A stretch of DNA of 64,000 nucleotides from positions 248,001-312,000 of the forward strand of contig CASEVJ010000005.1 of NCBI GenBank assembly GCA_949291365.1, written 5' to 3'. Shown in pieces: positions 56,497 through 62,795 of the stretch; within the stretch, counting starts at the first letter, position 1; each line of letters starts with the position of its first letter. The DNA is from an uncultured bacterium. Its GTDB lineage: Bacteria; Elusimicrobiota; Elusimicrobia; Elusimicrobiales; Elusimicrobiaceae. The notes under the pieces are model-generated. The model made no database searches and was not told the origin of the DNA. It was given only the letters and a program-made list of their open reading frames with translations. A program made the translations under genes and the position numbers.

Positions 56497-57268
56497 ATGC
56501 AATACACACGGCTGAAAAACGGACACGAAATTCCGCTCATTGGCTTTGGTACCTATCAAATTGACGACCCGGCCCAGGCGCCGCATATCTTTCAGCAGGC
56601 CCTGGCGCTGGGCTACCGCCTACTGGATACGGCCGCTTTTTATAACAACGAAGAATATGTGGGGCAAGCTCTGCGCCAAAGCGGTTTAAAGCGCAAGGAA
56701 GTTTTTTTAAGCAGCAAAGTTTGGAAAGACCAACATGGCTATGATGCTACACTAAATGCCTTTGACGCTTCCCTGCGCAAGCTGGGCACCGATTATCTGG
56801 ATTTATATCTTATTCACCAGCCCGCCGAAAAAAATCTGGAAACCTGGCAGGCCCTGGAAACGCTTTATAAAGAAGGCCGTGTCAAAGCTATCGGCGTGTC
56901 TAACTTTCAGCCGGCCGATTTGGAAGAGCTGGTGCAGCAAGGCGATATTATCCCCATGATTGACCAGGTGGAATACCACCCGCTTTACCAGCAAAAGGCC
57001 TTGCGGGCGTACTGCCGCCGGCTGGACATCAAACTGCAGGCCTACAGCCCCGCTGATGCGAGGGGAAGCGTTACAACTGCCGCTTATGGGCAAACTAGCA
57101 GACAAATATCACAAAACACCGGCACAAATTGTGCTGCGCTGGATTATACAAAACGATGTAATCCCCCTGCCCAAAGCAGCCAGCCCGGCCCGCATGAAAG
57201 AAAATTTAGGCGTATTTGACTTTGTCCTGTCGGAAGAAGATATGCTGCAAATAGCTGCTTGCTCTTAA
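56497..57268 (+). pseudogene. Aldo/keto reductase with a frameshift
   Basis: An aldo/keto reductase of about 257 residues if repaired. GFGTYQIDDP, then LLDTAAFYNNE (catalytic Asp and Tyr), SSKVWKDQHG (Lys), LIHQPAEKN (His) and IGVSNFQPADL are all present. At about 57052-57058 the frame shifts. The first frame continues as QAYSPADARGSV and ends at 57219 in unrelated text. The next frame reads LMRGEALQLPLMGKLADKY...PLPKA and ends normally at 57268. One extra base near the CCCC run explains it. It could be a true pseudogene or a sequencing error. Confidence 0.85.
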
Positions 57269-57323: not shown

Positions 57324-60300
57324 TTATTTCAGGGGCGACTCAACGCCTTTGGGCCGTTTAGGCACTTTTTCAAACATTTCGTGGGCTGTTTGGGCCACAT
57401 AGTCCACCCATTCTTTTTTCAATTCAACCACGGGCGAAGTTCTATACCCTGCAAAAGGAGTCATATCCTCCCCCCAGCAAAATTGGCGAATGCCCCGTTC
57501 TTTGGGCTGCAAGTGTATTTTGGCGTCCGGAGCAGAAAGATAGCGTTGTTTCCAAGGCCCTATATTGTGCACCGTGCCGGGGCAGGCCCGCTCCAGTTCC
57601 AGCAAATTCACCAGCAGTCCCCGCGGGGTTTTAGAATCGGCCACTTTGCGCAGCAACTCCAACTCTTTAGCCAAAGTGCCCAACGCTTTCTGCTGTTGCG
57701 GCGGAGCAGTGCGTAACTGGCGGCGGACTCTTTTAACACTTTGGGCCAGCGGATAAAAATCTTTCCCGTTCAGCAAAGCGCGGCCGGCCAGGCCGTCGCC
57801 GTTGTATTGCATACGCTGCAACATTTTACTGAACAGTATTTCCCGGGAAGTGCCCGTGGCAAACTGGGCGGGCAAATCCTCTGCCAAGGAAGCTTGCATA
57901 CGGGCTGTTGTAACAAACCAATCCGTCTTGCGAAGTACGTCCGGGTAATCCCACAGCGCTTTGCGCACATTGCATAAAAAGGTACCAGAGAAACATCCGT
58001 TCACATATATAGAGGAATGAAGTGAACGGCTTTGCTGCAGCTGGGGCAAAAGAGTCGGAGCGGATAATACCCAGTTAGGTCTGTCTCTTCTTTCTTTTAA
58101 AAGTCCCTTCCAAATGCCTTTTTTGGATATACCGCCATGCACATGTGCCAGCAAAATATTTTCCTGGCCGGATTTAAAAAACCTTAACGCCTGGGATATC
58201 GGCTCCAAATGCACGATTTGCGGCTGAAAAAACCCCACCATTGTTTTGCGGGCCCAAGCATGATTGATATCCAGTCCGTCCCCCCATACAAACACGCTGT
58301 TGGGCGTGCGATAGGCCTCCGGCAAAAATAAAATGCGGTTTTGAAAACCCAGCGACATCTTTTCCCCGAACACGGGCTTCTTGTACAAAGCACGCTCTAA
58401 TGCATAATATTCTTTAAGCTGGAACGGCGAAAACGCCTCCTTATTTTTTCCCAGCACTTCCAATTGCTTACGTAAGCCGGAGGCATTAGACAAAACTCTG
58501 GCGTTCCAATCCAAAAAATGATTATCAAACCGGTCCCCCCACACAATGGCACGGTGTATTTCCCTGTCTGTAGCCGAGTGAAGCTGGGCCGGCTGTCTTT
58601 TGCGCAAACGCAACAGATAATCCATATATTGTGTCAGCAGCTGTTTACGGCCGCCACGGGCAAAAATACCGGACGGCTCCGCCGGGAAAACAATCTCTTT
58701 CCAGTCGGCAAAACCGGCTTCCGTATTGTATATCCGGCTCAAACGCTGCGCCGCATCGGTTTGTTTTTCCAATTCCACAAAGCGCGACACGTCCTGCAGC
58801 GCCTGGCGCATTGAACTGGCGTCTCCCCGCAAAGCTGCCGCGGTGGTAATTCCTTTGCGTTTCCACTTTGTCTCCAGTTCCCGCATTATCCCTCGTCCCC
58901 ACTGGGCACTGGCAGCCATATCCTGCACTTCATGCTGGGACAACAGGTACTCTCTCCAGCCGCTGACATTATCCTTCTGCATCTGGTAAATTTCGCGGAA
59001 CAGCTGGGGTGCCCGCTGCAAATCCTTTTCCGCTTGGGAGGCCTTTTTAAGCAATGACCCTGTTTTAGATAAAGAAAACGAAGGCGTACTCTGACCAAAC
59101 AGCCCAAACATTTCCCGCGCCGTATCCGCCACATAATCCACCCACTTGGGCTCCAGCCGCACAAACGGCACCATATAATTGTCCACATCTATTTTCCAGG
59201 GTTTCAGCCCCCACATAAAAGAGCTGGATGTTTCCGGCATAAAAGATTGCATCATTAAAAGCCGCTCAAAATGCTGTACATATCCCGGATGTCGCTGGCC
59301 AAACAGCGTCAGCGCGCTAATCAGCTCCTGCTGGTCGGACGCTTCTGCCATGTAAAACAACAGTTTCAAATCATCACGCATGCGCTGCAGCGCGGCTTGC
59401 TCTGCCTTGGGGGCTGCCGCTATTTCCCGCTCTATACGCGTTATGCTGGCCCGCAGTGGGTAGACTTCCCGCCCTTTCACCCAAGCCCGCGCCGCCAGGC
59501 CGGCACCGTTATCGGTGATATTTAAAAGCAGTTTATTTAATAATCTTTCCCGCACGCTGTTGCCCGTTACAAAAGCCGGCAACGGCTTGGAAGAGGCCGG
59601 CTGCAATGGCGCCACGGAAACAAACCACTCGGTTTTTTGTGCGGCCTGGGGGAATTCTTCAAATAAGGATTTTAAATCTCTAAACACACTGCCCATCTGG
59701 CAACTGTTAATATAGACGGAGGTCAACGGGGAGTCCGCCTGTAAAACTGCTTTTACCAGCTTATCTGCAGAGAAAGTGGCCGCCGGACGTGTCTCTCCGG
59801 GCAGCGGTCTGCCCAGCACGGCTTTCCACTTGCCGTTTTGCGATATATAGCCATGCCCATTCAAAAATATCACATTTTCTTCTCCGCTGCGTAAAAACGG
59901 GGCAATCGCGGAAAAGGGCTGCGCACGGAAAATCTGCTCCATAGGGAACCCTAACGGAGATTTGTTAGCCAACATACTTAATGCGCCTATTTCATCGCCC
60001 CATACCCATAATGTATTCGGAGAGGGCTGCAAAAAAGGCACATTCATCGTACGCAGCTGCAGCAAAGTCAGTTTTTCTGTATCTAAAGGAGAAAAGGAAA
60101 TTTCTTTAATTAATTTTTGTACTTCTTTTCGCTGCAGGGCAGACAGTCCTTCCTGGTTTTGCAAATCCAGCAGGCGCCGTCTCACAGCTGCGCGGGAAGC
60201 CAGCCCTTCCTTCGGCCAAGCCAGTTCCTGCGGCGCGACTAACTCATCGCGAATATCCAACACCTTCTTTATTTCTTTGCCCAAAACCGCTTTTCCCGGG

Positions 60301-62795
60301 TGGCTCCCCGCGGGCAAAGCAACCATTTTTTGCTGCAACAAAGCAAGGTATTTGTCTGCCAGTTCCACCCGCCAAAAATCAGAAAAGAGTACTTCTTTCC
60401 CAGATAAAGAAATATCAAAACTGCCTGCAGGCAGGGCTTTTTCCGCCCGTAATTTCTGATAAAAAGCCAAATCCTGCTCCAGACGCACATATTCCTGGCT
60501 GTCGCGCAATGCGCGGCCCATGCGGGAAGAATTTTGGGACAGCTCCTTAAGCAGTTTATCCGCCGGGCCATTCCATTTTTTCAGCAAGGCCTGCATTTGT
60601 TCAAAAGTAGTCTGGGCCGACCCCGCCAACAACCCCCAATCCGCGCTCTGCAAGGCCAGCGCAACGGGCTTGTCTTGCATAGCCAGGCGGGTGGTACGCA
60701 GCGCGCTCTGCGTCAGCACACTGCTGCCTGCCTTTGAGGAGGAAGCCGCTTGGAGCAAGGGCTTGGACGCCGCGGGTGCCGCCTTCAGAGTGATTGGGTG
60801 GGCCGGGAGCGCCGGGCGCACGGCTGCGGTCTTGTCTGTTCCGGCCAAAGAAAGCAGCATCGGCGCCTGCGTGTTAGCCGCGGCGGCGGGCGCAGCCGGA
60901 CGGGGGGCTGCTTGCGGCTGCAAGGCAGCTACGGTTTTGACTAAATTTTGTTTTGCGTTTTTAGCGGCGGAAGTCTGGCGGAAAACACGTAATTTTTTCA
61001 GCCGGGAAGACAAAGCCGCCAGCTTGCGCACATCGGCGTTAATACGTCCCGCCCGTACAGCAGCCAGCCCCCGCTTAAGCGAAAGCCCCCACTGCACCCC
61101 TTTAATGGCGGCCGCCGGCAAAGCCAGCGTATAATAAACGCCCAAGCCCATATCCACCACAGAGGAGACGCTCTTGGCCGCGTGATAAATTTTCTGTCCG
61201 GTTTCTTTGCGTTGATAGACAGGGCTGTCCTGATTATATTTTTCAAGAGTAACAGAGGTCTGGGAGGGTACGTCTGTTTTCTGCTCTTTCAGGGCCAGTA
61301 TCTGCGCCTGCAAACGCAGAGAGGAGGGCATCGTTTCCGCGCCCGCCAGCTCAAAATAATTTTCCTCCGAACGGCGGGGGTCATACAACTGTTGCTGAAG
61401 CTGTTTAATTTGCTCGTCTAACTGGCGGTTTTGCTCCAGGGCTTCCCGGCGGGCTTTTTCCACTTTCTGCACTTCTGCTTCAAACACGTCATAGAACAGC
61501 CCGTCTAACCGCATTTCCGTCTGGGCGTTTAAATCCCCCATTACATTTTCAAAATACAGCCGCGTCACCAAAGCCGGTGCAGAAAGATGCAAGCGCTGGG
61601 CAACACCCTGCAGTTGTTTGGACGCGCCGGATGTCTGTCCGCTGGCAAGCGCCCCTGTCAGAAAAGGAAGCAGCGTTTTGCATTGTACGGAGAAAAACAG
61701 AGGAGTGGCACCTTTTCCCAGCTCCCGGCCATGGGCCCAGTCTTCCAGTTCCACCTCACAGCTGCCCAACCCGTATTGCGCCAACAGCCGCTCCGCGTCC
61801 GGGCTGGGACTGCCTTGATTATACAGCATGCGGGCCAACTCTTCCCAAGCGTTCCCGTCCGCTTCGCCATACAAATTCGGCAGCACGGCCATGGCGGAGA
61901 CATTGCCCAAATAGCGTCCGCGGCTGAATTGCACTTTGTTAATCCACCAGCCGGTCATGAAAACGTCTATTTTTTGCCAGAAATTCTCCGGTTCTTTGTC
62001 CACCGCTTTTGCCAGCACAGGGGCCAATAATCTTTCCTGCCCCATAGCCGAAAGCGCCGCCGCCCCCGCCAACAGCTCACGCGCAATCAGCGGCTGTTGC
62101 ACATCTTCCTGCAGCACCTGGGCAATCAGGCGGGCATCTTCTTCCGTCCGGGCCAACAGCGCCATACTCTCCAATGCATCGGCGCGCCCTTCGCAAAAAA
62201 TACGGTATCCGCTGCCCTGATTACATTGGGCGGGCTGGGTTAAAATACGCCGGTACAGCTCCCGCAGGGCAACGAGATCCCGCGCGGCAAAAAACTGATA
62301 TTGCTGCTGCAGCGGCAGCAGCGGCAGCGCCACTTCCAGCACACTCTGCACGACTATTGGATAATAGGCCCCTTCCGTACGGTAGAGCTCCATCAGCTCC
62401 GCCACGGCGGAACGGATTTCCTGTATATCCGCTTCCGTCAGTTCGGCCTGCGGGCCGGCGGGAGAAGGTTCATTGGACGGCATAAAAGCGTCGCGCAGTT
62501 GTTTGGCGCGGCGATATACCGGGCTGTTTTGATACAGGGATAAATCTGTCAGATTGGCCTGATGTACATGGACGCTTTCATAGGCGTTTTGGGAGGAGGG
62601 ATTGGCTGGTTTGTAGCTGTCATAAGCGCCGCGTTCCCCCCGCAGAGCCACCCGGCGCATGGTATTGGAGGCATGGTCTAACCAGCTGGATTTTTCAAAA
62701 AAAGTACCGCCGGGCCGCTGCCAAGCCCAAAGCCCGCCGGCACTCTGCACCAGCAGTGCCGCACTGATAAATAAAGAAAGAATGCGTCTGGCCAT
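57324..62795 (-). CDS. 1823-residue secreted protein with two caspase/legumain-like (clan CD) domains
   Basis: Signal peptide MARRILSLFISAALLVQSAG, then a helical-repeat-like region (about 100-430), a coiled coil (about 430-480), and an Ala/Pro-rich linker (about 620-690). Two related domains follow. Domain 1 has its His in VIFLNGHGYIS (His981) and its Cys in SVYINSCQMGSVF (Cys1032). Domain 2 has LLAHVHGGIS (His1553) and SSIYVNGCFSGTF (Cys1601). His-to-Cys spacing of 48-51, a preceding hydrophobic strand and C-x-x-G-S/T-x-F fit clan CD peptidases (legumain, caspase, gingipain). Each domain is followed by text like KTEWFVSVA or KTDWFVTTA and by WVDYVAxTAxEMF (residues 1218 and 1796). No activity is proven. 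TATACT ends 7 nt before the ATG. Confidence 0.8.
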   Translation of the reverse strand: MARRILSLFISAALLVQSAGGLWAWQRPGGTFFEKSSWLDHASNTMRRVALRGERGAYDSYKPANPSSQNAYESVHVHQANLTDLSLYQNSPVYRRAKQLRDAFMPSNEPSPAGPQAELTEADIQEIRSAVAELMELYRTEGAYYPIVVQSVLEVALPLLPLQQQYQFFAARDLVALRELYRRILTQPAQCNQGSGYRIFCEGRADALESMALLARTEEDARLIAQVLQEDVQQPLIARELLAGAAALSAMGQERLLAPVLAKAVDKEPENFWQKIDVFMTGWWINKVQFSRGRYLGNVSAMAVLPNLYGEADGNAWEELARMLYNQGSPSPDAERLLAQYGLGSCEVELEDWAHGRELGKGATPLFFSVQCKTLLPFLTGALASGQTSGASKQLQGVAQRLHLSAPALVTRLYFENVMGDLNAQTEMRLDGLFYDVFEAEVQKVEKARREALEQNRQLDEQIKQLQQQLYDPRRSEENYFELAGAETMPSSLRLQAQILALKEQKTDVPSQTSVTLEKYNQDSPVYQRKETGQKIYHAAKSVSSVVDMGLGVYYTLALPAAAIKGVQWGLSLKRGLAAVRAGRINADVRKLAALSSRLKKLRVFRQTSAAKNAKQNLVKTVAALQPQAAPRPAAPAAAANTQAPMLLSLAGTDKTAAVRPALPAHPITLKAAPAASKPLLQAASSSKAGSSVLTQSALRTTRLAMQDKPVALALQSADWGLLAGSAQTTFEQMQALLKKWNGPADKLLKELSQNSSRMGRALRDSQEYVRLEQDLAFYQKLRAEKALPAGSFDISLSGKEVLFSDFWRVELADKYLALLQQKMVALPAGSHPGKAVLGKEIKKVLDIRDELVAPQELAWPKEGLASRAAVRRRLLDLQNQEGLSALQRKEVQKLIKEISFSPLDTEKLTLLQLRTMNVPFLQPSPNTLWVWGDEIGALSMLANKSPLGFPMEQIFRAQPFSAIAPFLRSGEENVIFLNGHGYISQNGKWKAVLGRPLPGETRPAATFSADKLVKAVLQADSPLTSVYINSCQMGSVFRDLKSLFEEFPQAAQKTEWFVSVAPLQPASSKPLPAFVTGNSVRERLLNKLLLNITDNGAGLAARAWVKGREVYPLRASITRIEREIAAAPKAEQAALQRMRDDLKLLFYMAEASDQQELISALTLFGQRHPGYVQHFERLLMMQSFMPETSSSFMWGLKPWKIDVDNYMVPFVRLEPKWVDYVADTAREMFGLFGQSTPSFSLSKTGSLLKKASQAEKDLQRAPQLFREIYQMQKDNVSGWREYLLSQHEVQDMAASAQWGRGIMRELETKWKRKGITTAAALRGDASSMRQALQDVSRFVELEKQTDAAQRLSRIYNTEAGFADWKEIVFPAEPSGIFARGGRKQLLTQYMDYLLRLRKRQPAQLHSATDREIHRAIVWGDRFDNHFLDWNARVLSNASGLRKQLEVLGKNKEAFSPFQLKEYYALERALYKKPVFGEKMSLGFQNRILFLPEAYRTPNSVFVWGDGLDINHAWARKTMVGFFQPQIVHLEPISQALRFFKSGQENILLAHVHGGISKKGIWKGLLKERRDRPNWVLSAPTLLPQLQQSRSLHSSIYVNGCFSGTFLCNVRKALWDYPDVLRKTDWFVTTARMQASLAEDLPAQFATGTSREILFSKMLQRMQYNGDGLAGRALLNGKDFYPLAQSVKRVRRQLRTAPPQQQKALGTLAKELELLRKVADSKTPRGLLVNLLELERACPGTVHNIGPWKQRYLSAPDAKIHLQPKERGIRQFCWGEDMTPFAGYRTSPVVELKKEWVDYVAQTAHEMFEKVPKRPKGVESPLK

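Follow-up and report, generated by a model that had tools for sequence, protein, structure and literature searches.

What does a giant protein with a signal peptide and a duplicated caspase- or legumain-like module do in a gut bacterium of the Elusimicrobiota, and on which side of the membrane would its modules work? The gene is carried by contig C5 of a genome of 1.39 Mb, and among named relatives that genome is best matched by uncultured Elusimicrobiales and Ca. Avelusimicrobium excrementipullorum. Its reading frame is unbroken in the window, the 64,000-nucleotide stretch of this contig that was analysed (Table 1). We consider it fairly probable that the product is a tandem cysteine protease of clan CD, anchored in the membrane, with a sensor outside and its modules in the cytoplasm.

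Table 1. Position in the window of the gene and of the features of its product, with the basis of each assignment where one applies.
Feature	Position	Strand	Basis
Whole gene, 1823 aa	57324..62795	-	ORF call and full-length orthologs
Signal peptide, residues 1-24 (MARRILSLFISAALLVQSAGGLWA)	62724..62795	-	Sequence; aligned and conserved in 9 relatives
N-domain, putatively exported, residues 25-540, conserved cysteines 191, 201, 346, 372	61176..62723	-	
Putative transmembrane segment, residues 546-564	61104..61160	-	Kyte-Doolittle 1.49; conserved position in the alignment
Basic stretch, residues 567-640 (20.3% K+R, 1.4% D+E)	60876..61097	-	
Caspase-like module A, residues 826-1239	59079..60320	-	Alignment, profile, tandem model
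His981, predicted catalytic	59853..59855	-	
Cys1032, predicted catalytic nucleophile	59700..59702	-	
Helical linker between modules, residues 1240-1395	58611..59078	-	Tandem model
Caspase-like module B, residues 1396-1819	57339..58610	-	Alignment, profile, module B model
His1553, predicted catalytic	58137..58139	-	
Cys1601, predicted catalytic nucleophile	57993..57995	-	

The original prediction, made from the DNA letters, had recognized no known family in the flanking sequence, and this holds for Pfam and NCBIfam, where the whole protein gave nothing over cut-off. Weak matches to PF01650 (Peptidase_C13, legumain) recurred in several members of the family, with best E-values of 0.0085-0.019; these are below the curated cut-off, which was never reached (0 matches over it in 30 family genomes). 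PF00656 (Peptidase C14) had no match in the protein or its genome. The protein matched no model of the known anti-phage defence systems in PADLOC, a sequence-profile search of the PDB returned no real match, and no match was found among phage records. A 2012 survey of prokaryotic caspase homologs placed Elusimicrobia among the groups without metacaspases (PMC3501461), and no description of the module family was found in the open-licence papers searched. Because the C13 and C14 Pfam cut-offs are missed and no Pfam family claims the protein, we regard the family as undescribed and lineage-restricted, a new and divergent member of clan CD whose tandem, membrane-anchored architecture is unusual.

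Judged by sequence comparison, the protein is not an orphan and belongs to a lineage-restricted family of many members. When 248 genomes of the phylum were searched with a profile, only 18, from two of 76 genera, contained modules; outside the phylum, the distribution search covered close relatives only. Six full-length two-module relatives occur in the genus, five of them with 48-51% identity to the window protein, while the relative in G022 was matched in two pieces (44% and 52% identity). Three single-module relatives were also found, and more distant members comprise proteins of 820-840 aa (some in tandem), a protein whose frame spans 418 aa, and the terminal part of a 4592-aa ORF. Further proteins with two caspase-like modules are encoded in L092 (4165-6930) and L098 (3-5327), and in L042 (2064-12924, G016:C2) a tandem pair of module genes is flanked by ftsK and a gene for polynucleotide phosphorylase. 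Module genes in L092 and L095 adjoin an AsmA/DUF748 gene; in L092 a gene for KDO transferase is adjacent as well, and these neighbors are a hint of an outer-membrane setting. A 24,491-aa frame in L099 (G009:C5), considered as a giant module protein, was rejected because its length is an artefact, half of the sequence retrieved there being N.

In the two-module orthologs the gene neighborhood is conserved, with a macrodomain/glycosylase pair on one side and an aldo-keto reductase/DUF362 pair on the other (the aldo-keto reductase is missing in G022); the single-module relatives have the DUF362 side in common. The gene is transcribed divergently from the macrodomain gene and has no evident operon partner, so synteny offers no functional clue. 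The aldo-keto reductase gene in the window (56497-57268, plus strand) is split into two frames with a break near residue 185, which we attribute to a frameshift or an assembly error; the corresponding frames are open, at 273-285 aa, in L056, L057, L059 and L060.

The AlphaFold2 model of module B (pLDDT 92.0, pTM 0.90) contains a strand at 155-161 followed by His163 (= His1553) and a strand at 203-209 followed by Cys211 (= Cys1601), and in the tandem model the His and Cys of module A likewise each follow a strand. A dyad in which each residue comes after one of two central strands is typical of clan CD (PMC4357240). Foldseek matches in the PDB were almost all clan CD proteins (legumain, MALT1, metacaspase, GPI transamidase and Raptor), and a viral C14 protein was matched with an E-value of 1.4e-4 and a probability of 1.00. 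Single E-values against the PDB were weak (2e-3 to 0.3, the best being 1.9e-3) and TM-scores low (mostly 0.2-0.4), so what carries the argument for the fold is that the listed matches agree with one another, together with the dyad and the conservation. Among 22 closer modules, Cys is present in 22/22 and His in 21/22, module B of L060 being the exception. Across 19 divergent modules, with a mean column identity of 24%, no column other than those of the His and the Cys is invariant among the 145 without gaps, as one would expect for an active site and not for a fold retained without catalysis. Divergent members of the family also carry LDACHSGQ, which we take to resemble the metacaspase motif. 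The clan CD dyad read by the original prediction is thus borne out by the predicted structure, by a Foldseek list dominated by this clan despite weak single E-values, and by the invariance of the His and Cys in divergent relatives; neither a predicted structure lacking the caspase-haemoglobinase fold nor, among the 19 divergent modules, a loss of conservation at the two residues, which that prediction had named as counter-evidence, was found. These results support a caspase/legumain-type clan CD fold with a predicted His-Cys dyad for the modules. A fixed pseudo-dimer of modules A and B was considered and set aside, since their relative placement is unsupported in the tandem model (pTM 0.64).

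The signal peptide recognized at the outset aligns and is conserved in 9 relatives. In the N-domain that follows it, four cysteines are invariant among the two-module orthologs, and other members have mostly even numbers of cysteines; past the hydrophobic segment, only the catalytic cysteines are conserved. The position of this segment aligns across relatives. Its Kyte-Doolittle value is 2.0-2.3 in the single-module group, and it is only moderately hydrophobic in the two-module group (1.49 in the window copy). The basic flank that follows it carries a charge of +14. The combined hydrophobic-plus-basic score of the window copy was reached by 2/200 shuffles, and the scores of most members were rarely reached, the exceptions being L057 (71/200), L059 (33/200) and one L042 protein, for which shuffles equalled the score often. 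Residues 126-397 of the N-domain are common to a multi-TM paralog elsewhere in the genome (L041, G000:C10). The 1787-aa frame of this paralog has the same N-domain and hydrophobic-plus-basic segment, and its C-terminal end is a multi-TM domain without a Pfam match; it can be read as the same front end placed on another kind of effector. A hidden module in L041 was rejected (profile comparison probability 0.2%), the multi-TM domain being there instead.

A receiver-like (REC) domain forms the C-terminus of four orthologs and two single-module relatives. The ortholog receivers match PF00072 with E-values of 1e-5 to 3e-5, below the Pfam cut-off; the phospho-acceptor Asp is present in 6/6 and the Ser is kept, while the usual conserved Lys is replaced. 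Since the window copy, L058, L035 and L038 lack it, the domain is dispensable. The window ORF ends after module B with no receiver, and this copy has lost the domain; a search for a relic, with the ortholog C-terminus as query, gave nothing significant in the window. In L044 (1111-6977, G057:C9), a module protein gene adjoins a gene for an N-domain protein without a module, consisting of a signal peptide, the N-domain, a hydrophobic segment and a REC domain; the same components are here divided between two genes. Receivers normally work in the cytoplasm. The hydrophobic segment with its basic flank, the distribution of cysteines and the receivers at the ortholog C-termini make it probable that modules A and B are cytoplasmic rather than exported.

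We propose that the N-domain would be periplasmic and disulphide-bonded and would act as a sensor, that the chain would cross the inner membrane once, at about residues 546-564, and that both modules would lie in the cytoplasm behind this outward-facing sensor. A signal at the N-domain would then govern whether substrates in the cytoplasm, or the protein itself, are cleaved, and in the orthologs the C-terminal receiver-like domain could be an alternative signal input controlling cleavage. Such a protein would be a one-protein bacterial counterpart of a death receptor and its caspases, its periplasmic sensor being joined directly across the membrane to a pair of caspase-like proteases in the cytoplasm, and in several species it would also be wired by the receiver to phospho-signalling. 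We offer this analogy tentatively, with confidence short of even. Self-processing, in which one or both modules cut their own chain, for example at the linker or the basic stretch, and free a fragment from the membrane, is compatible with the membrane-receptor model. It is conceivable, although on balance somewhat unlikely: some clan CD enzymes process themselves (PMC4357240), the MARTX-CPD offers a likeness in cutting its own chain, and the linker between the modules is long and helical, but no cleavage motif was identified in the protein.

The surface or periplasmic enzyme of the original prediction is not supported for the modules, although the signal peptide and N-domain are probably exported. 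If the whole mature chain were exported and the modules cut extracellular or periplasmic proteins, the conserved signal peptide and the weakness of the hydrophobic segment in the two-module group would be readily explained. L092 and L096, which have a signal peptide and no hydrophobic segment, add to this case, and their modules may be exported. For the window protein we nevertheless think this unlikely, given the conserved position of a hydrophobic segment with a +14 flank, the cysteine distribution and the C-terminal receivers of the orthologs, all of which argue against export of the modules and for the membrane-anchored arrangement with the protease modules inside.

Modules A and B are homologous (33% identity over 388 aligned columns, E = 9e-59), and the two copies lie about 570 residues apart as predicted; the profile gives a length of about 415 residues rather than the 300 first estimated. 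The alignment recovers H981, C1032, H1553 and C1601 together with the motifs W[VF]WGD, KT[ED]WFV and WVDYVAxTAxEMF, and confirms that both dyads are intact in the window copy. His and Cys lie 51 positions apart in A and 48 in B, with a family-wide range of 46-54. In the tree, the A modules form one clade and the B modules one side of a branch (100/100); because they separate in this way, a single old duplication was inherited by the seven orthologs. In ortholog L060, Arg replaces the module-B His and the module A dyad is kept, indicating that module B can lose its dyad and that the two modules are therefore not interchangeable. This substitution favors a reading in which, at least in some species, catalysis falls to module A and module B serves as a pseudoenzyme or regulator. 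We judge that reading quite improbable, because 6/7 B modules, the window's included, retain both the His and the Cys, and because B, not A, is the closest module to the single-module relatives in the tree. That both modules are inactive scaffolds retaining only the fold is very unlikely, since nothing specific favors it beyond the existence of pseudo-orthocaspases (PMC6426788) and the dyad alone is invariant across very divergent members.

Comparison with known systems places the proposed arrangement of two cytoplasmic proteases behind an outside sensor close to, and yet apart from, several described proteins. Legumain is the best Foldseek match in the PDB, and shares the HG followed after about 48 residues by C and the C-x-S-G pattern after the Cys strand; the recurrent subthreshold PF01650 matches are a further likeness. 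However, structural alignments have only about 10-14% identity, and the modules described here have an extra N-terminal helical region and C-terminal helices within a tandem, membrane-anchored protein. Metacaspases, orthocaspases and the paracaspase MALT1 (C14) share the fold, the dyad and, in divergent members, LDACHSGQ, but the C14 Pfam model (PF00656) matches neither the protein nor anything else in its genome. The Trichodesmium metacaspase with a CHASE2 receptor is a membrane protein whose sensor lies outside and whose metacaspase is believed to act in the cytoplasm (PMC3501461), and thus resembles the proposed arrangement. Its enzyme is N-terminal and single, and its CHASE2 sensor is flanked by four TM helices (PMC3501461), whereas the protein described here has an unrelated N-domain sensor, one putative TM segment and a duplicated enzyme. 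The C-terminal domains of the six relatives resemble response regulator receivers (PF00072) in keeping the phospho-acceptor Asp, and differ from them in the subthreshold score, the replaced Lys and the absence of the domain from the window copy.

Bacterial caspase-like proteases are relevant to how regulated cell death and proteolytic signalling arose, and the Pfam models on which surveys rely do not score this module family above their cut-offs. If the predicted topology is true, the protein could convert an outside signal into protein cutting inside the cell. One polypeptide offers a putative sensor, an apparent membrane crossing and two predicted protease modules as a testable system.
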